A stretch of DNA of 64,000 nt, taken from positions 107,347,343 to 107,411,342 of the forward strand of contig NC_079213.1 of NCBI RefSeq assembly GCF_029633865.1, in the 5' to 3' direction. Origin of the DNA: Lampris incognitus. Taxonomy: Eukaryota; Chordata; Actinopteri; Lampriformes; Lampridae. Numbering within the stretch: the first letter of the stretch is position 1; every line of letters starts with the position of its first letter. Below the pieces are notes generated by a model. It was not told the DNA's origin. It searched no databases and saw nothing but the letters and a program-made list of their open reading frames with translations. Shown here piece after piece: positions 3,220 through 59,494 of this stretch. The position numbers and the translations under genes were made by a program.

Positions 3220-6200
3220 CACTGCAAACTCATCTTTGTCCAGATGGCCATCTTTATCTATGTCACTGAGGTCCCAAACCTACAGGTGGGAAACAAACTC
3301 AATGTTAACAACAACGAACAATTAACACCTCACTTTGTTGTGAAACACTTGATTTGATCAGCTGTACCGGCAAACTTTATTAAGAAAAAACGTCCCAAGC
3401 ACAGTGATATTTTTGCTGGTTTGTTTTACCAACATATGGTTCCACACACTTCCATAAGAACAATTGCATACAAGGAAAAAGAAAAAAAACATGGAACAAA
3501 TAAACATGTGCTAAGCATTTTAAACCATTCAAAACAACCCTACCTTCCCAAGGACCTCTAGAGGTAGTTTGGAGTTGATTAGCACTGGCTTGACCTTATC
3601 CCCTGACAGCAGTCCGTTGAGTGGGGCGAGGCTTTCAAATATGCCATCGAATTTACTTTTCTCCTCAGGCTACGAAAGAATACACACTTAAGTAATCTTA
3701 AAGCCCTATGCTTCAATTTTAGCAATGGTTACCAGTTAATTCACTGCACTGGAGTCCTTTTTCACATACAGAATAATATCTTCAGATTCTGAAACCATGA
3801 CTGATTGCTTTTAACTAAGAATTTTACAGAAATATTAAGAATGCAATGAACTTTATTAGAAATGTAATTTCAAAAAACATTTGCTTGAAAAAAATAAATA
3901 ATTCTGAGTTTGTGAAAGTTAGAAAAGAACCCAATGAAAATTGTGGTATGCCCTTTTACCAATGATTTTGGTTATCAATTGTTGAACCACTCATAGATTT
4001 TATATATTCTAATCCTGTGGTCTGGATCAGTCTAATCAATATTTGTGAAAGTGAGCAAGTTTCTCTCAAAGCCAGAGAACCAATTCATACTTGTTATTTT
4101 GGCAAATCGATTTCAACCATCCAAGTGCAAAGAAATAAAAAGATCTCTTATCCATAGCTCTGTTCCCATTCGACAACTCCAATGACAGTTATGCTCTTAT
4201 TTATATGCATGTGAGATTGAGTGAGCGTGTGATTCGCGCTCACCCTAACAGCCCAGTGTGGCTCGCTGGAGGCAGAAGCTGTGCTGCTGAGAGATGGGCT
4301 GCTGGTATCCTTCTAAAAACAAACCAACAAACAGAGCTGTGAGATTATTTGGATGTCTTGAACTCAATGAACTGAGGACAGCTTCTCTCTCATATTTACA
4401 CACTGAGCTTTTGACACAAGGACTCAGTGCCAGGGATAAGGAAACGTGACTTATACATCAATGATGAAAAAGGCTGCAAGATGGCTTTTTTCGACATAGA
4501 TGCTTATGTTTACTGTGAAGAGTATTTTGATTTACAACAGTAAGTTGAAAAGAATTGACCATGTATGTGTAAAACTCTTTCATGAATCTGTGACTATACA
4601 TTGACCAAAAAATTGTGGATCAGAATTTTAATGTGTACTCACAAACTTGGGAGGAGGGACTGTGAGGTTGAAACTGGCAAGACTGACTTCCTGTCCACTC
4701 TGAGCGCAAGCCACCAGCCGCAGAGCTACGTAAAACCCCTGGGAAACAGAAACAGAACCAGAATCAACAAACCTCCCCCATATCAATTTCTCTTTGACTG
4801 TCTGTCCTTCTGTCTCATTGACTCACTCAAACACTAACTTTACTTAAGGGACTGAATGGGCCATTGTAACATTATTAGAAAAACACGTAAAACTCAAATT
4901 CCATGTAAAACACTGCTTCTTCTTAGGTTGGGTGCCATTTTGTTCTCTAAATCACATAAACTTGCATTCTTGAAAATTAGTCATCTTCCCTAAATGGCTT
5001 TGACATTCAAAATATTATCAAAAGACACAGTGAACTGATCTGTACCTGTTTGTCTAGATACCCTTTGCCATCAGGGTCTGCCAAATCCCAGATCTGAAAC
5101 ACAAGGCACAAAAACAGTCAAAATTGCTGTTTGATGATGACTGCAATGTTGGGCTGGAGGGTTTGTGTGGTGTCAGGGAACCCCCCCTTCCTCATTGCCT
5201 GAGAAATCCTGGTTTACATCCTCTCTATAAGCAAAAGTTAAACCTTCTGTAGCGCCCTCCTAATGATCCACATGGACCCTAAGGGATGCTGCACTGCAGC
5301 TGACCTTGTGCACTGACCTCCCTATGCAGATACAAGCCATAAAACTGAATTTTCTTACAGAAAACAACACAGTATCAAATTATAATACCAATGACCCTTG
5401 ACTATAATGGTCTTGTAGCAACAGTCAACGCATTAAAAAAACAAATAAATAAAAAAGAAATTCCAAAATAATGGTGTCCAAGACTATCCTTTGCCTATGA
5501 AACTGTTATACAGGAATCAATGATTCTTCTGAGCAACATCAAGTAATACACAGGATCTGATGTTAAATCCCTTGTGCTGAACATTCGGGGGCTACACACA
5601 GATGCTCAGTTCACCCAAACAACCTCACCCTTTTGTCCCTTCATTCAACATCAGTCTGAAATCTCTCATAGGCCTAACATGTGCTTAAGTTACAAGCTTC
5701 TGAGAAGGCATCTTAAAAGCACCTGCAACGGTCTTAAATTGGTTTTCAAAGCATCCCTGACATATAAGAATTCAATGTGATTTTTTTTCTTCACAAAAAT
5801 CATTAAAAAACATTTTTAATACCTCCCAACATTAGTGTTAATTCACTGACTGAAAGCATCACCTGGCTGGCAGTATCAGTCTCGCAAACACCCCTGCCCC
5901 ACCTCCCTGTGTCTAAAGTGAAAGCCAAATTTATGAGACATGGCACACACAGCATGCATCCAATGTGTCTCGACCCACATTTCCTTTCCTCTGCATGCCG
6001 GTTCACCCTGGTGACAGCCTCCCCAAGTACTACCTAACCTTAACCCCAATTTTAACCACCACCTTACCTTAACCCCAAACTTAACCACTGTAACTATAGT
6101 TTCCATTGCTAGCAAGATAAAATCGACTCTGGCGGATGCACTGCTAGACCTTTTCAGAAGTGTTATATGTACGCCGTTAGCTGAGAATAGGATCGGTAGT

Positions 6201-10395: not shown

Positions 10396-10671
10396 CTTCC
10401 CTGTTGCTGCGGGAACGCGCGCACACACCCTCTCTCGCTGTCGCCCCCCCCCCCCCTCTCTGTCTGTCTGTCGCTCTCTCGCTGTATCTCTTACCCCCCC
10501 CCCCCTGCTGGGGATAGCCATGAATAACGTCCCATCCTGGCTCACCTCCACAACGTGGGATCCAAAGTACGCGACACTTGTCCATTAGAGATGGGAATCG
10601 GATTTCATATCGCAATGCTGTTTTTATCGCCGATTGGACGCAGTGGGATTTCTCAATCGTCTCAATATTAT

Positions 10672-10807
10672 TGTAACCTACTAATAAGACACGTTAGCCC
10701 CCCAGCTAACGGGTCTGACCCTTTAGCCGAGCGGTCAGTGACGTCACCTTGTGGTGCAGCACACGCCGTATCGAATCCCGCACCGGGCAAGAAAATAACC
10801 GGCTACA
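10672..10807 (+). mobile_element. Solo LTR of a short LTR element with tRNA-like Pol III boxes
   Basis: A 136-bp repeat starting tgtaacc and ending ggctaca, flanked by ttat on both sides (a 4-bp target duplication). A near-identical 136-bp copy lies at 59359-59494. Internally it carries an A-box-like tttagccgagcggt and a degenerate B-box-like tatcgaatccc, so the LTR resembles a tRNA promoter. It is a fossil with no coding capacity. It sits between eps15l1 and rad23a. Confidence 0.65.
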
Positions 10808-11105
10808 TTATCAATGCTGCCGTTCAGCGTTACAACTTTTAAGCCTCCGTGAACTGCCAAAACTGCAACAATCCAAAGAAAATGTAAATTGTGTTTCGAT
10901 ATTGCAATTCCAGAGAACTGCGGCAAAGTTGAAATTGTCAAGGCTTATCAACATGCTGTTCTACACTGATTTTTCGCCCACCTCTGCCACCCATTTTTTT
11001 TTTTATACCTGTTTCATAGGACTCTGGGCCACAGTGGTCTGGAGTCTATCCCAACAGGCACTGGGCAGGTCAGGGAAACACCCTGTACACGTCCAGTCCA
11101 TCAGA

Positions 11106-19600: not shown

Positions 19601-22600
19601 GGCTTGTGCATCATATTCATATTATATTATAGTGTGACAATACTGTAAGAGATTTTTGTCTCGCTCCTCATTTAATGTCAGAGTAGACTTGAATAATTGC
19701 CACGACACTGACGTTTCCAAATAACGAGGCCTTCCTCCGGGCAAACAATGTTCTCTCTCAGAAACGGTCCCTCTGTAAATGGCTCGCCAGCCTTCGCCCA
19801 TCGCCTCGTGTACCACATAGCTAACTTTGACAGCTGCTTTCTCTCCCTCTCCTCGCCTTTGAACCGATCCCGCTCCTCTGCACGTTTAGCAAAGTAATGC
19901 TGCTTCAGACCGAAATCCTTCAGGACGGCAACTTTTTCCCTTGTAAATTAGACAAGATCGCGGACGCGTTAAATTCGGTGAAGTGGTCGCGCGCCCGTTT
20001 CTGTTGGAACCGTCGGTGCTCCTGGTCGACTTGCCTTTCGGCTTTTGAAAGTGACATTTTTACAAAACATCTGCAAGCGGTGACAGCAGTTTACTGTAGC
20101 AAGCTCACGTGAGAGATTTCGCAGTGGGCTAGCCTACTGGGCTTATGTACTCGAGTTGCCTGGCTAGTGTGTGTGCGAGACACGCACACTGACGCACACA
20201 CACACACAACAAGAGAGAGAGAGAGTGCTGCAAAACTGATATTAGGCTACGTCATCTGCAACTGGCCTCACAACCAGTCTTAACTGAGTACTTAGAATTA
20301 TCCATTAGCCAAACCACTTATCCTGCTCTCAGGGTTGCGGGGATGCTGGAGCCTATCCCAGTAGTCACTGGGCGGCAGGCGGGAGACACCCTGGAGAGAA
20401 CATGCAAACTCCACACAGAGGACGACCCGGGACGACCCCCACGGTTGGACTATCCTGGGGCTCGAACCCGGGACCTTCTTGCTGTGAGGTGATCACGCTA
20501 ACCACTGCCCCACCACGCCGCCCATACTTAGAACTAGAAACACAGAAACGTTAAAAAAAAAAACAAACACGTAAGTAGTATGCAAAACGGATAGGCAGTC
20601 CAGATCTCTTAAGTCTAAAACAGCGCGGGCCTCACAAAACTGCCTCCGGCCCGCAGGGCAGTAGTTCGAAACCCCAGCCGTAATACATGCATCCGTTTCA
20701 TCCAGACTCGATTACTGTAACGATCCGTTTTCAGGTCTGCCACATGCTAGTATTGACCGAGTCTTCATCCATCTATCCGTCCGTTATCCGAGCCGCTCAA
20801 AATGCTTCAGCTAGAGTCCTCACTAAAACTAGAAAATACGCCCATATTACCCCAATTCTTGCCTCCCTTCATTGGCTTCCTATCCATGTTAGGTCAGACT
20901 TCAAGGTGCTTCTGCTGACTCATAAATTCCTAAATGGGCCTGTACTGCATGGCGGGTCAGTTTCGGTCTCAATGAATTTACCAAGCACCGTTCTGCCGAC
21001 AAGATTATAGAGTATAGATTATTGGCTATTGTCAACTGTTCTCTTCTCTCACGTCTTTCCTCTCTCTCTGAATGTCTTCTCATTTCCCTTCGCCCGTGTA
21101 TGCGAATGGTGTGATGCGAGTCTCCCCCATGCGCACGTGTAGTCTGTCCTCTTCCCGAGTCTCCATGGTGACGGTGGTCGCCACCTGGACACTGCTTTGG
21201 CATCCTCCCCATCACATTTTGTATATATCTTATAAATCCATATAATTTTGTTATCCTGTTTCAACGTTATATCCTTCTCTCACTCCGATGTGTGACGGAT
21301 GTTTTTTCTTGCCTCTTCCCCCGAGTATGTGAATGGTGTGACGCGAGTCTGCCGTGTGCATGCGTAGTTTGTCCTCCTGTCAGGTCTACATGGTGATGGT
21401 GACTGCGTGGCTCAGGTCCTAGGCTGTTCCAGTGGCATCTGCACACTACTTGGCATCCTCATCATATTCTTCATATGTCTTATAATTCCATTATAATTCT
21501 GTTAACTTCCTTCAACGTTGTATTCTGTAAATTGTGTTTTATTCTGTACACACAACATCCATTGCACGTCTATCCGTCTTGGGAGAGAGATCCCGCCTCC
21601 GTTGCTCTCCCTGGGGTTTCTTCCTATTTTTCCCCCCGTTAAAGGTTGTTTTTTAGGGAGTTGTTCCTTATTTGATGCGAGGGCCTAAGGACAGGATGTT
21701 GTGTTGCTGTAAAGCCCACTGAGGCAAATTTGTAATCCATGATAATGGGCTATACAAATAAAATTTACTTGTTTTGTTTGGCGATGGAAAACGTGTTGAC
21801 ACAACAGCACGAACAACTCTTCATTTAGAAATAGATCTCCGGGATGTGGAGTGGTCCGACAACCATGTAATTACCAGCATCGCAATATATGTATATTATA
21901 AACAAAAACAATCATCTTCAGAATTGCAGCTTTAAGACAATTATATGAAAAAAGTGTGAGGTTTAAACAAAAGTCCGTTTTAACCGGATAAATCAATACA
22001 CATACATGTACACGCACAGCTTCTTTTTCTATACTTGCGAGGACCCCCATTGACATCATTCACTCCCTAGCCCCTAACCTTAACCATCAGAAGTACTTGC
22101 CTAACCTTAACCCTTAGCCTAACCTTAACCCTAAACCCATGTCCTTATCCTAAAATAGACCCTTAAAGATGTGAGGACTGACCAAAATATCATCACTTTG
22201 CTAAAATGTCCTCACTGTCAAGGTTAAAAACTCAAATTGGTCCTCACAAATACAGCTGAACAAGACCACATACACACAGGTAGCAGCTCAGCAGTCAGCA
22301 TCATGATCCATGGCCTACATAATCCATGGCCTATTTCTTTTAAAATAGTCTTAAAAGGAGGCACTTCGAGATCTGTCTCCGCAGAAGTATATAGAACCGC
22401 TATACAAACTCAATTTATTATTATTTATTATTATTATTACCTGCAGTAGTTGTGGGTTATCTCGGCCCAGCTGCTGCAGCAGGGCTGGTAGGAGAGCAGG
22501 GTTTTGCTGGATGATCTGTCTCATCTGCTGGAACTGAGGCTGATTTCTAAGGAACTCCAAAGGGTTCCCTGTGGCGCCGCCGCCGCCACCACCACCACCA

Positions 22601-28600: not shown

Positions 28601-31600
28601 ACAAGTGTTTTACCATTATATTGTTAACACGAGGTGAAACATTCAGCCCGGGGTGAACTCAACCCTGCTTGGGACCAGGGTTGAACTGTCTCACCCCGTG
28701 CCGAGAGCTTCGACCTTGGATGGAAAAACAATTTGAAAACATCACGGGGTTGAGCTCGCCTCAGGAGGACAGTTCATCGCAGCTGGACCCATACCATAAT
28801 TACAAAACATACACTTATCGTGTAGTACTCAAAAGTTCCGCGCGTTCGAGCCTCGAACGTTTCTCCACATAACATCTCGGTGCCCTTGCCAGCTTTCGCA
28901 ATAGTAGTAGAAGGCAGCATCATTTCGACCATTTCTGTCAGATCCATTTTGCAGACAGCCTGTCATGGAGTTGACCAAGCGCTAAACTAGTGATCACCGG
29001 TGCAGTTAGTTTGGGTTTCTATGGTTACACCATTCCCATAACCTTGGGTAGTGAAGTTGAAAGCAGCCGAAGAAGTAAATGGTCTCTCTCTTCGGGTTGA
29101 AAACGTAGCGTGGAATTAATCTCGTCTGTAGTTTCGCCCAGGATGACTTCGCTCATGTCACGTGGATGTAAGCGGGGTTGAGCTCAGCGATGACTGAACT
29201 CCGGGGCACCCCGGGGGGGCGAGTCGCCCCAGTGGGAAAGGTGCCAACTTGAAAATGCCTTGTGTCGAGTGGACGGGTCGATTTCATTGAGCTTTTCTCT
29301 CTCGAACGGCTGAAAGCATATCTTAAAAAGCACAGCGATCAAGACAAAATGTACTTGAGGAGTTTTCTCACCTTCTGACTAAGGCTGACTCCGGTTAAAA
29401 AGGCTTACCTTCGTCACCATGACGACCACAAAGTTTTTCTCATCGATTTTGTAGTCTCTGAGAGGGGTGTCATCGTTCAAGATTTTGCCTGTTAAATCGA
29501 AGCATAAACACCTTGTGAAAACAGATCCATGACCTGATACGGACCTCAGATATGCCAAAACACAGGAAGAAACCAGCACACGTGAGCTGGCTGGGCAGTT
29601 ATCGTTAGCAGCAACACTTAAAAAAAAAAGTTTTGCAGTTGTATTTCATGTCAAAGCACATATTCACAGAAAAGTGCAGTATATGTAAGTACTCTTACAT
29701 TAGGTTGAGGAAATTTGACTTTTGCATCATAATACTGCCAAATACAATCCATACTTCCATCACTGATAGTAAAATACAGTCATTCTAAGCCTTAACCCTC
29801 ACGCTGACTCTGCATCTCTGCAAGGCCATTCTGGGTGATACTCTTTTCCAGAGGAATTTGCAATGAGCGTAACAGTACAATAATCTAAGAGTAACTATTC
29901 CTAGAGGAACAACAGGACTAACAGTAAGGACATGCAGGGTTGAAGTTTCTTTTTTTTTTTTGCTTTCCTTAGTGGTGGTGTTCACGTCATCTAAAAACAC
30001 ACCGTACCTAAGCACTGATTCGATAATCAATAACCAACCAAAGAGAAAAATTAAAACTACTGAGCAAGATCAGAACAGAAACATGATATTCTCTAAGAGC
30101 AACAAAGTAATTGTAAGATCTTTTTCTTTTTAAAGATGTACTCCTTTCGGGTTTTTAGCCATTACTTGACAGGACAGTAAAGACAGACGGGGAACTCGTT
30201 CAAATAGACAGGGGTGAAGAGAGTAGGGGGGAGACATGCTGCAAAGGTGCCGTGATGGGATTTGAACGCTCGACACCGTGGTCAGACCGGAGCCCACATG
30301 GTACGCCCCCTGCAAACATAATGTCCTCATGTTTAGCTTGTCTTCCACTACTTTAAGAGCTTCTCTTTGACTAGCTATTCACCAGCTTGATAGATGTGTG
30401 CTCTTACTTCAATTAAAACTGCTTTCAGCGCATGTGATGTATTTCAGCGGATTAGGCGGGGATAGACAACGGATGGATGGATGTGCAGAGGGATGTTGCT
30501 TTACACTTGATGCACTGCGGCTCACCTGCGTAGATGAGTTTTTGCCCCGCAACTGGAAAGACATCCTTGCCCTTTTCCTCTTCTATCTTCTCTTTCAGCG
30601 ACTTTACCTGGAAAACATCAACAAGCGACAGCATTTATGACCGGCTGGATTACGACAGGATTAAGTGACTATGAACAGCCCCCTCACATTTGGCTATTAA
30701 ACAGACTATGTTGACCAGACAATTATGGGCGCCCTACTACCACACAGACCCATTATGGTATAATCAGAAATTCACTGGGAGGATAATGTGTTGCAAGATG
30801 TTTCATCGAGTGGAACGACCAGCAGTAACTGGACAATCATAGGCACAGTCAGGCGATGCTTATACTGCAAATAGCAGTAGATGGATGTGACCGGCCTGTT
30901 ATATAGGTTTCAAAATGCACCCACAAAACCTAGTGTCCTTTGATGGGAAATAGTTTGTGTGTAGTAAAACGTGCACCGGCATGTGCAGATTTGGCTGACT
31001 CTCTTGTCCAGAGTAGTTTACAGGACTGTCAGCGATGAGGCCTGACAGATTCAAGTGTTGGCCACTGACATGCAAAAGCACTACAGTAAGTTATCGAATT
31101 CCGAATTCGCTACAATATGGCAACTTATTGTAGCGAATTCGGAATTCGCTACAATAAGTTGCCATATTGTAGCGAATTCGGAATTCGCTACAACATGATA
31201 CTTCTATATGGAATAGCAGTACTACTACATTTCCTCCACAGTAGTCTTATCATAACAGCGCTGGGTGGAGTAATGGCACGTTTGCCATGCATCCACAGCA
31301 CAGCCGGGCGCGCGGGTCACGCCGACTGCATGTTATCGTAGGTGAGCCTCGGCTCCTGCAGGGGCGGCCGACAGGGGAGTCAAAACCCATCGACACGCAT
31401 CAGTTCGACGGACGTGTTTTCGTCACAAGCGCCTAAATCGCAGGTAGGAGGACGGGCACCGCCGCCACCAGCACCGCCGCCACCAGCACCGCCACCACCA
31501 CCACCACCGACGTCCAAGTAAGCACGGATAACAGCGGTCGACAGCGACAAAGTTGCATTTTGGATAATTCCCCTTCGGCCCGGAAGGTTGAAGTTTTGTC

Positions 31601-33846: not shown

Positions 33847-34014
33847 TGCGGATAAGAAGACACGCTGACCGCTGGCTCGCGGGTCTGACCCTTTAGTCGA
33901 GCGGTTAGCGACGCCTCCTGCGGTGCGGGCGATACGGGTTCGCTTCCCGGTCGCGGCAGTTCCTATGGTTGCGTTGTCCCCCCGAATTCGCTACATTGGT
34001 GTCAGAAGTGGGAT
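33847..34014 (+). mobile_element. LTR with tRNA-like boxes followed by a primer-binding site (short LTR element)
   Basis: The LTR spans 33847-33995 (tgcggataagaag ... gaattcgctaca) and is followed after one base by tggtgtcagaagtgggat (33997-34014), a typical LTR-retroelement primer-binding site. Inside the LTR, tttagtcgagcggttagcg (A box) and acgggttcgcttccc (B box) resemble a tRNA promoter. Its left edge cuts the RTE fragment. No second LTR or coding region was identified, so it is an incomplete fossil. A related LTR lies at 58850-59007. Confidence 0.6.
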
Positions 34015-34200
34015 GGAGCGACCGTAAGGCCATCGGAAGCGCATGCGCCCTGAGGTGTGAAGGAGCTGATGCGCTTAAGCGCGGGGATGCGTGCGCAGCT
34101 TGGCTGCAGGGAAGAACGTTACCCGACCGTTGATTACCGCCTCGGCTTGGTATGAAGACGAACTTCCGATACGTTGCAACGGTTTGGTTTAAGTTTTAAA

Positions 34201-35085
34201 ATGTTTTCCGCCTACTACAACAGCCTGTCACCCAGTGATAAGACCAGTTATGCTACGAAATTAACCTTGGTGAAAGGGATACGTCTTGGAGACCCATATG
34301 CTTTAGGCGCAGGTCAGCGGATTAATGGCGAGACAAAATGGCCCAGTCTTCAGTGGCCAAATATTCACGAATACCTGATCGACACACCGAGTCTTTATTC
34401 CCAGGAGAACTTGAAAACGTACATGTCTCTGGATGCATACAACTATACTACTAGCGGTCATGTCCAGGATGTACTATTTCATGATTACAAAGTTGAAAAC
34501 TTTGTAGTTCTGAGGACTGAGGTGCTGCCTAGCCAAAGACAGGGCAAGAATACGGAGATGTTCAAGGTCTGGGTTATTGTGAACAAGAGAAACAACTGTA
34601 TATTCTGACCGTGAACTGCACCTGTATGGCTGGGTATGTAACTTAAGTTACTTTGCTAAATACTCTTAGCTTTCCATTACTATTTAACCTCTTCAGTCAC
34701 TGTCGTTAATGTAGTAAACAACATTTCACTGCTCATTTGCTGCAATTATATATCTGTGCCTGCAGACATATCTGGCCCGAACGCCGTTTAAATCAATGTG
34801 TGTAGTACGTTAGATTGCTAGTACTTAATCTCTATGCTATTTTCTTGCAGCCTGGGGTCATGCTGCAGGCATGCTGCTGCTCAAAGTTGATCTGTGGGTC
34901 AGATATGGAAAGACCGAGAAGTCTTGTACCTCAGGGACAAACAAGTGGTTCCTCGCATCCAAAAGAGAGGTGAAGCCAGCCAGACTGAGTGAAATCTGCA
35001 TCAGAAAGCCAAAGTGGACAGACACCCAACTGCAACCAGCCAGAAAGGCCAATGTCAAAGTTATAATATATTTTATATTAAAAAA
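34201..35085 (+). pseudogene. SWIM-finger protein exons of a YqaJ-type transposon gene
   Basis: The first block starts MFSAYYNSLSPSDKTSYATK and continues with EYLIDTPSLYSQENLKTYMS and VLPSQRQGKN. In a shifted frame it reaches ILTVNCTCMAG before a GTATGT donor at 34634. The second block follows an acceptor at 34852 (HAAGMLLLKVD, then KPARLSEICIRKPK). CxC plus H is the SWIM zinc-finger pattern found upstream of the YqaJ nuclease domain in mobile-element proteins of fish and other animals. The finger is damaged by a small deletion. It probably belongs to the same transposon group as the blocks at 36203-40150. Confidence 0.55.
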
Positions 35086-39229: not shown

Positions 39230-40150
39230 CTCCCTGAACTTTACATGCTCAGGGTGGACGAGGTCTACGGTGACCTTTCTAGTGATGTGGCTCCTCATAA
39301 CAACTATGGCCATAGCCGATAATGTGCCTCTGGTAGAATCTAAGTTCGGTAAAGTACAAGAAGGAAGTGTGTTGTCCGATCACTTGCCAACAAAGACAGT
39401 GCCAAAAACCCATCCACACTCAGATGCCCCTTCTCCCCCACAGCTGCCACTTTCTGGTTACAGGCTGAGACCCTCTACCTGTTGCTTCGTCCGCTCTGAG
39501 CATGAGTGGCTCCACATGATGTCCCTGGCAACGTCATTTGAGACAGCTCACAAAATTGAGAACAGCAGAGTTCCTGTGTAGATTGGCACCAACTAAGGTG
39601 GTCCCGCATCGCCTCCATCAAATTTAGAGAGGGCTGTCACACCAGGGGACAGACCTCTGCTGAAAATCTGGCGAAAAGGCTTCCGAGACCCAGTCATCAG
39701 ACTGCAGACATGAGGAGGGGGCTGGACATGGAACCTGCAGCAGTAGACGAGTACTGCAGAGCAAGGGAGGTCAATCAATATCCTTGTGGGTTCCTTATCC
39801 ACCCTGACGCACCTTGGATGGGGTCATCACCTGATGGCATAGTGTATGATCCAAAGGGGCAGACAGAGTTTGGCCTTGTTGAAATTAAATGCCCAAATGT
39901 TTCGAGTTATGTGGACTGCCCATACATTAAGATCAGTGAGGGCATACATACACTAAGGAAACCCCATCCGTACTTTTGGCAGATCCAGGGTCGGCTGTTC
40001 ATTTCTGGACTTGAATGGTGTGACTTTGTTGTCTACACACAGGAAGACATGTTCATTCAGAGGATTCTCAGAGACAATGAAATCGCAGCCACAATCACAG
40101 AAAATGTTGACTATTTCTTTTATTTTTACCTCTATGCTTCCCTGCAATAG
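39230..40150 (+). pseudogene. YqaJ-like (lambda-exonuclease fold) recombinase domain
   Basis: The plus strand encodes SRIASIKFREGCHTRG, then MRRGLDMEPAAVDEYC, GSSPDGIVYD, GLVEIKCPN, FWQIQGRLFISGLEWCDFVV and a stop at 40148-40150. The E...SPDG...EIKCP...Q.Q series is the catalytic pattern of YqaJ/lambda-exonuclease nucleases (metal-binding D, E and K). The 39565-40150 portion is close to intact; the part upstream has at least one frame change. Such nucleases accompany THAP-DDE transposases in ISL2EU-type DNA transposons. Confidence 0.7.
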
Positions 40151-58377: not shown

Positions 58378-58449
58378 GCCGTGATCGTATAGTGGTTAGT
58401 ACTCTGCGTTGTGGCCGCAGCAACCCCGGTTCGAATCCGGGTCACGGCA
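58378..58449 (+). tRNA. tRNA-His (anticodon GTG)
   Basis: 72 nt forming a complete cloverleaf. The acceptor stem is gccgtga/tcacggc with discriminator A, the A box is tagtggttagta, the anticodon loop is ttgtggc, and the T arm is cccgg-ttcgaat-ccggg with the B box ggttcgaatcc. It differs from the mammalian tRNA-His gene mainly by a compensated T-stem pair. A T-run that could stop Pol III lies at 58512-58517. The gene looks functional. Confidence 0.95.
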
Positions 58450-58849
58450 ATGTTCAGATTGATGGGCGTTACAGCGCACGTGTCATTGCATCTATAATTA
58501 CGAAGTAGGTGGTTTTTTAACTACCTACCCTGTATGTAGAACAATTAGAAGTAAGGCCAGTTTTGCATCAGTGGACCTCAACTAATTTCCCAAGACAGGA
58601 CGACTCTCGTGGCCACGGCTGTTTCCCGTAAGGCTATTGCGACACTTTTCGCAATGAAGATCAGTGAGAGGAAAAAGCGAAGAGGGCTGAAGGTTTGATT
58701 TCTGGTCTGCTCACACGGAACGGACTAATGGACCTAAGTGGGGGGGGGGGGCTTGGTTGACGTGCGTTGGGCTCCCGACGGTTTATTTGCCCAGTTAACA
58801 CAGACAACGCACTAAATCAATTAGGATTATGATGATTAATATTGTGACG

Positions 58850-59007
58850 TGCATGGATAAGAAGACAGGATGGCCGCTGGCTGGCCGGCTGGCGGGTCGG
58901 AGCCTTTAGTCGAGCGGTTAGCGATGCCTCCTGCGGTGCGGGCGATACGGGTTCGCTTCCCGGCCGCGGCACTTCCTGTGGTTGCGTTGTCCCTCGAATT
59001 CGCTACA
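58850..59007 (+). mobile_element. Solo LTR with tRNA-like boxes
   Basis: Related to the LTR at 33847-33995 (gataagaagaca ... ggttcgcttcccgg ... gaattcgctaca) and ending with the same 12 bp. It contains A-box-like tttagtcgagcggttagcg and B-box-like acgggttcgcttccc. No primer-binding site or internal region follows, so it is a solo LTR fossil. No clear target duplication. Confidence 0.6.
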
Positions 59008-59358: not shown

Positions 59359-59494
59359 TGTAAACTACTAATAAGACACGTTAGCCCCCTAGCTAACGGG
59401 TCTGACCCTTTAGCCGAGCGGTTAGCGACGTCGCCTTGTGGTGCAGTACACCTCGTATCGAATCCCGCACCGGGCAAGAAAATAACCGGTTACA
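59359..59494 (+). mobile_element. Solo LTR with tRNA-like boxes
   Basis: A 136-bp copy starting tgtaaac and ending ggttaca, nearly identical along its length to 10672-10807. It carries tttagccgagcggttagcg and tatcgaatccc. A fossil without internal sequence; the flanks show no duplication. Confidence 0.6.

Follow-up and report, generated by a model that had tools for sequence, protein, structure and literature searches.

What kind of mobile element carries a tRNA-like promoter between LTR-like ends? The question is raised by four short repeats in a 64,000-nucleotide stretch of the Lampris incognitus genome (the window; contig NC_079213.1), in which the initial annotation had seen an A box and a B box at the spacing of a tRNA gene, framed by LTR-style tg...ca ends. 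It proposed a Pol III-driven LTR design, with a tRNA-derived SINE captured by an LTR as the competing reading. Very likely, in our view, three of the repeats are solo LTRs and the fourth is an LTR with a primer site and a truncated interior, all belonging to two TRIM families of the Helenus type, which would be transcribed by Pol III, primed by tRNA-Leu and presumably mobilised by Gypsy enzymes, and which appear to recombine with each other.

Two LTR families in the window

Table 1. LTR copies in the window and the features that belong to them
Feature	Position	Strand	Details
5' target duplication of a1, TTAT	10668..10671	.	3' copy at 10808-10811, perfect 4-bp match
a1, family a solo LTR, 136 bp	10672..10807	+	box A 10724-10734 TAGCCGAGCGG, box B 10768-10778 GTATCGAATCC
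b1, family b LTR without its first 12 bp	33850..33995	+	box A 33894-33904, box B 33937-33947
b1 primer-binding site TGGTGTCAGAAGTGGGAT	33997..34014	+	one base past the LTR; complement of the 3' end of host tRNA-Leu-CAG plus CCA
b1 interior, first 96 bases of the family b type	33996..34091	+	truncated, without purine tract and without 3' LTR
b2, family b solo LTR, 165 bp	58843..59007	+	box A 58907-58917, box B 58950-58960; flanks ATAT/ATGT, 3/4 match
a2, family a solo LTR, 136 bp	59359..59494	+	without target duplication; box A 59411-59421, box B 59455-59465

The division of the repeats into two subfamilies proposed at the outset is borne out: two copies, 93% identical, belong to a family that we call a, and the other two to a family b (Table 1). 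LTRs of family a are 135-136 bp long and those of family b 157-158 bp, the window copy b2 measuring 165 bp. Both a ranges stand as first drawn, as do the tg...ca ends of three of the four copies, but two corrections are needed on the b side. The true start of b2 is 58843, reading TGTGACGTGCATGG..., rather than 58850, and the "tg" at 33847 is not the start of the b1 LTR because homology to an intact copy opens only at 33850. The annotation was also right that one copy is flanked by a 4-bp target duplication (a1) and that another is followed, after one base, by a primer-binding site (b1). A stop-to-stop open reading frame at 34156-34608, considered as a coding interior for b1, was rejected because it falls past the end of the TRIM homology at 34091.

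Three other features of the window were recorded in passing. A 39-bp tandem array of 2.6 copies at 31095-31197, whose unit is the 14-bp end of LTR b (CCGAATTCGCTACA) facing its own reverse complement, looks like a rearranged remnant of LTR ends. The only tRNA that ARAGORN calls in the window is a tRNA-His gene at 58378-58449, about 400 bp upstream of the b2 LTR. Positions 39560-40150 hold an open reading frame that resembles a YqaJ-like exonuclease, as judged from reading the sequence only.

Paired LTRs around a short interior

A genome search had been suggested for pairs of these LTRs around a short interior with a primer site and a polypurine tract, and such elements were found. By its RAG1 the 1.48-Gb genome is probably that of a bony fish: one intact exon reading frame scores 1116 bits against 3jbw (zebrafish) and 989 against 5zdz (labelled mouse RAG1). 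In this genome, two LTR searches were run and the best 40 of 1940 and the best 40 of 2226 candidates scored. The fetched loci L001-L058 and the window together held 130 LTR matches in 89 elements, or 87 without L001 and L009, which are window copies. Of these 87 distinct elements, 50 have a single LTR, 33 have two and 4 have three, partial LTRs included. The counts are not independent, given that the copies are related and that similarity to those in the window decided which loci were taken.

The order of parts is LTR, one base, tRNA-Leu primer site, interior, purine-rich tract and LTR. Family a combines 136-bp LTRs with a gene-free interior of about 103 bp, and family b 157-bp LTRs with one of about 117 bp; two-LTR copies number 24 of 351-377 bp for a and 6 of 424-432 bp for b, with a median LTR-LTR divergence of 5.2% and 3.9%, respectively (one b pair stands at 18.5%). 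The primer site one base past the LTR is TGGTGGCAGCGGTGGGAT in family a and TGGTGTCAGAAGTGGGAT in family b, or a close variant. These 18-nt sites match host tRNA-Leu-AAG (a) and tRNA-Leu-CAG (b); CCA is added to the 3' end of tRNAs, and the host genome has a tRNA-Leu-AAG gene at one place and tRNA-Leu-CAG genes at four that end in the primer-site complements. With at most two mismatches in 18 nt the site is present in 27 of 29 a interiors and in all 8 of family b (exact in seven of each). A purine-rich tract lies ahead of the second LTR in 29/29 a and 8/8 b interiors, the a interior ending in GGGGAGGGTGACGAC in 16 of 29 cases and the b interior in GAAGGAGGGGGGTAG in 4 of 8, with variants elsewhere; in family a the tract is followed by seven mixed bases, TGACGAC, and then the LTR.

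Both ends could be read in 63 elements. Of these, 26 are flanked by a perfect 4-bp target duplication, where mispaired flanks predict 2.05, and the other 37 are not. Exact flank matches of 3, 5, 6 and 7 bp occur in 1, 0, 1 and 1 elements, respectively, and a flank table of 64 rows has one mismatch in 13 and two or more in 24. The perfect duplications have the form NTAN in 11 of 13 cases for b and in 6 of 13 for a, a difference that, in this small sample, hints at different integrases. No A-tail is present in the printed 3' flanks. Adjacent TRIMs with LTRs in common form tandem arrays at four loci (L003, L048, L049 and L094). The pairing of the LTRs, the primer sites and purine tracts and the 4-bp duplications together uphold the proposal of a short TRIM-like element with tRNA-type Pol III boxes, comparable to Cassandra.

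Searched with at most two mismatches, a 22-mer around box A occurs at 21,068 places genome-wide, and the junction of the family a LTR with its primer site, with at most three, at 3,524; the reversed control for the 22-mer and the control for the junction each gave 0. The first 100 core places, all without mismatch and within the first 9.3 Mb of one contig (C1), have a mean spacing of 86 kb, and 39 of them lie in same-strand neighbours 190-330 bp apart.

A tRNA-type promoter module

The observation that first drew attention to the four repeats is confirmed in its main points, with the qualification that box B is imperfect. Box A (TRGYNNARNGG) matches in full in all four window LTRs, box B (GGTTCGANTCC) is two positions off in a and one off in b, and the box starts lie 43-44 nt apart, the spacing of a tRNA gene, in all four; for each LTR, none of 400 dinucleotide shuffles gave a pair as good. 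Box B is likewise two off in 52 of 63 a LTRs and one off in 33 of 37 b LTRs. The boxes of a diverged b-like copy at L012, with three mismatches, were equalled by 7 of 400 shuffles. ARAGORN called no tRNA in the window LTRs or in loci L001-L008, and the Rfam tRNA model matched no LTR in the seven loci scanned, at E values up to 10. By these two programs the LTRs lack the cloverleaf of a functional tRNA gene, and their likeness therefore consists of promoter boxes and spacing, not of a tRNA.

Since the copies are related and were picked by similarity, comparisons between the families serve as indications only: identity between a and b is 97% over the ten columns that end in the first bases of box A (25 of 56 a LTRs against 25 of 32 b LTRs), 86% in the following ten, which are the rest of box A, 49-58% around box B, which is no better than its surroundings, and at the LTR ends 0-50%. 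Conservation is thus good on the box A side and not at box B. TTTT is a stop signal for Pol III. With the same reservation, it is absent on the sense strand from all 100 LTRs (63 a, 37 b) and all 37 interiors (29 a, 8 b), while AAAA is present in 59 of the 63 a LTRs and in none of the 37 b LTRs or the 37 interiors. The missing T4 therefore says little for b, and the strand contrast is informative only for the a LTRs, because b LTRs and interiors also lack AAAA.

From these sequence features we infer transcription of the LTRs by Pol III. The polymerase would begin in the 5' LTR, a short way before box A, continue through the T4-free element and out of its 3' LTR, and stop at a T-run in the flanking DNA. 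Reverse transcription of this RNA would be primed by tRNA-Leu, and the enzymes of a Gypsy-type element would integrate the product in trans. Families a and b have the promoter module in common but not the LTR ends, interiors or primers, and they may also prefer different targets.

Could the repeats instead be ordinary tRNA-derived SINEs, with tg...ca ends by coincidence? Boxes of tRNA type at tRNA spacing fit such an identity, as do the 50 of 87 elements that are single. What speaks against it is that LTRs stand two or three together about a constant interior that has a primer site and a purine tract, that target duplications are 4 bp long, and that the printed 3' flanks are free of A-tails. 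The copies that the initial annotation would have taken as those of SINEs, always single with poly(A) or variable tails and long duplications, are not what the genome shows. We have rejected the SINE identity on the paired LTRs and the 4-bp duplications, and regard it as highly improbable. Somewhat more credible, though still unlikely, is that these are indeed LTR TRIMs, but transcribed by Pol II and carrying the tRNA-like stretch as a captured fossil. That reading gains from a box B that is imperfect and not specially kept between families and from the want of a tRNA call by Rfam or ARAGORN in the LTRs; it must contend, however, with the stretch just before and in box A being the best kept between the families, with a T4 that in family a is absent from the sense strand and present on the opposite one, and with perfect boxes in a related copy. 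The latter lies at L021:2134-2369, where two inverted copies of an a-related repeat, possibly an older relative, have both boxes perfect; for one copy the match was equalled by none of 400 shuffles. When this repeat was tried as a SINE ancestor, the best 40 of 648 genome candidates scored yielded relatives at 76-89% besides its own copy, and some of these lie in same-strand pairs about 180-250 bp apart. We thus favour TRIMs with a putative Pol III promoter in the LTR.

Mixed arrays and chimeric LTRs

A further genome search found the b primer site behind non-b LTR ends at 110 places, and the family a end CGGTTACAT stands ahead of it in 20 among the 100 matches listed. Four of these 20 sit on three fetched loci: two (L094 and L096) are mixed tandems of a LTR, b interior and b LTR, and in the third (L095) the first LTR is chimeric, with a b 5' side and an a 3' side, and the second is of family b. 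Exact searches gave 25 chimeric LTRs, 11 b-to-a and 14 a-to-b, and none in reversed controls. Judging by these junctions, families a and b have recombined with each other, although some of the chimeras may share common descent. The switch falls within a 17-bp block, CGGGTCTGACCCTTTAG, directly before the variable base of box A, in 17 of the 25 (9 of 11 b-to-a, 8 of 14 a-to-b) and outside it in 2 b-to-a and 6 a-to-b chimeras; these breakpoints were read by eye from the printed letters, and the assignment leans on one box A base, which reads C in 58 and T in one of the 63 a LTRs, with four unread; 36 of the 37 b LTRs have T there, and the last is unread.

The 17-bp block coincides with the expected Pol III start. 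Since a and b share no longer identical run, however, DNA recombination accounts for the breakpoints equally well. We give about an even chance to chimeric LTRs and mixed arrays having arisen at the DNA level, by unequal crossing-over or gene conversion, rather than by template switching in reverse transcription. Besides the long identical run, crossing-over is likely in tandem arrays, 6 of the 14 a-to-b chimeras switch outside the favoured block, and just the first of the two LTRs at L095 is chimeric; against it stand the agreement of the block with the expected Pol III start, hence with the R boundary, and the spread of the chimeras over 8 and 9 contigs. A more tentative, and on balance doubtful, proposal is that RNAs of the two TRIM lineages, made by Pol III and primed by different tRNA-Leu species, are co-packaged in Gypsy particles and trade halves of their LTRs when strands transfer at the 5' end of the RNA. 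The favoured breakpoints would then mark the Pol III start and the R boundary, and promoter modules would move between LTR chassis.

Relation to Helenus and other small elements

The structural reading of the initial annotation holds, but its suggestion of a design not yet described fails, because Kojima 2024 (PMC10886601; cited in the meeting report PMC12859917) had already named Helenus (TRIMp3), TRIMs with tRNA-like boxes in the LTR, fish included. Apart from these two publications, the literature listings showed papers on other subjects. In the available part of that paper, Helenus is recorded from coelacanth, sturgeon, paddlefish, zebrafish and other Ostariophysi; it measures 311-1263 bp, mostly below 1 kb, has 4-bp duplications in animals and tRNA-His, -Leu or -Lys primers in vertebrates, forms tandem arrays, and has Gypsy as its likely partner in animals, its Pol III transcription being putative there as well. 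Every defining feature in that account that could be decided here is present in the window repeats and their relatives: a short non-autonomous element with two LTRs, in both families inside the Helenus size range; box A and box B inside the LTR, here with an imperfect box B; a primer site after the 5' LTR complementary to a tRNA (here Leu) and a polypurine tract before the 3' LTR; and 4-bp target duplications, here in 26 of 63 elements against 2.05 expected. Tandem arrays are common to both, and a Gypsy element is a candidate partner here too. What differs is that a single genome here has two families, each with a tRNA-Leu primer of its own, together with arrays that mix a and b and LTRs that are chimeric; on chimeric LTRs and arrays of mixed family the part of PMC10886601 available to us is silent, as it is on any absence of terminators from Helenus. 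It lists 5,575 LTRs at over 90% length and identity for the zebrafish Helenus family LTR-11_DR, a figure measured differently from our 21,068 cores (22-mer, at most two mismatches).

Cassandra of plants is likewise a TRIM with a small-RNA Pol III promoter in its LTR and with tandem arrays, but its boxes are those of 5S rRNA rather than of a tRNA, and it terminates inside the 3' LTR (PMC10886601, as available), whereas we see no T4 in the element. The tRNA-derived SINEs (SINE2) have an internal promoter of the same type but, from general knowledge and the same source, lack the LTR pair, primer site and 4-bp duplication and use LINE machinery. Ajax of nemerteans, as described there, has the TRIMp3 design and a tRNA-Leu primer but a 5S-derived promoter and 5-bp duplications.

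This is, on good support, a case of a known kind, in which the high count and the recombination between two lineages are the points worth following. Relative to what was available of that published account, the present analysis adds the 21,068 cores, the TTTT-free elements, the mixed a/b tandems, the 25 chimeric LTRs and a Gypsy-type candidate partner. Made independently and in a fish genome, these tests lend support to a class of LTR elements, named only recently, whose promoters are of Pol III type. The natural recombinants could help to place the RNA start without a transcript map, and the large set of copies could be used for testing how such elements borrow partner enzymes.

A candidate partner element

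Ahead of the b (Leu-CAG) primer site, ATGTCACAT stands in 7 among the 100 matches listed, and two of these were fetched (L097 and L098). A piece of L097 matches Pfam rve above the cut-off (5.2e-14) close behind the primer site, so this copy is internally deleted. At L098 one piece matches RVT_1 above the cut-off (7e-9) and another below it (2.6e-4); five of the eight pieces tested from the two loci gave no Pfam match. We treat the Gypsy-type element as a candidate only for the partner of TRIM b. L097 has only the spacer and primer site in common with TRIM b, and L098 has 22 nt, TTGGTGTCAGAAGTGGGATGGA, which are the spacer, the primer site and three further bases.
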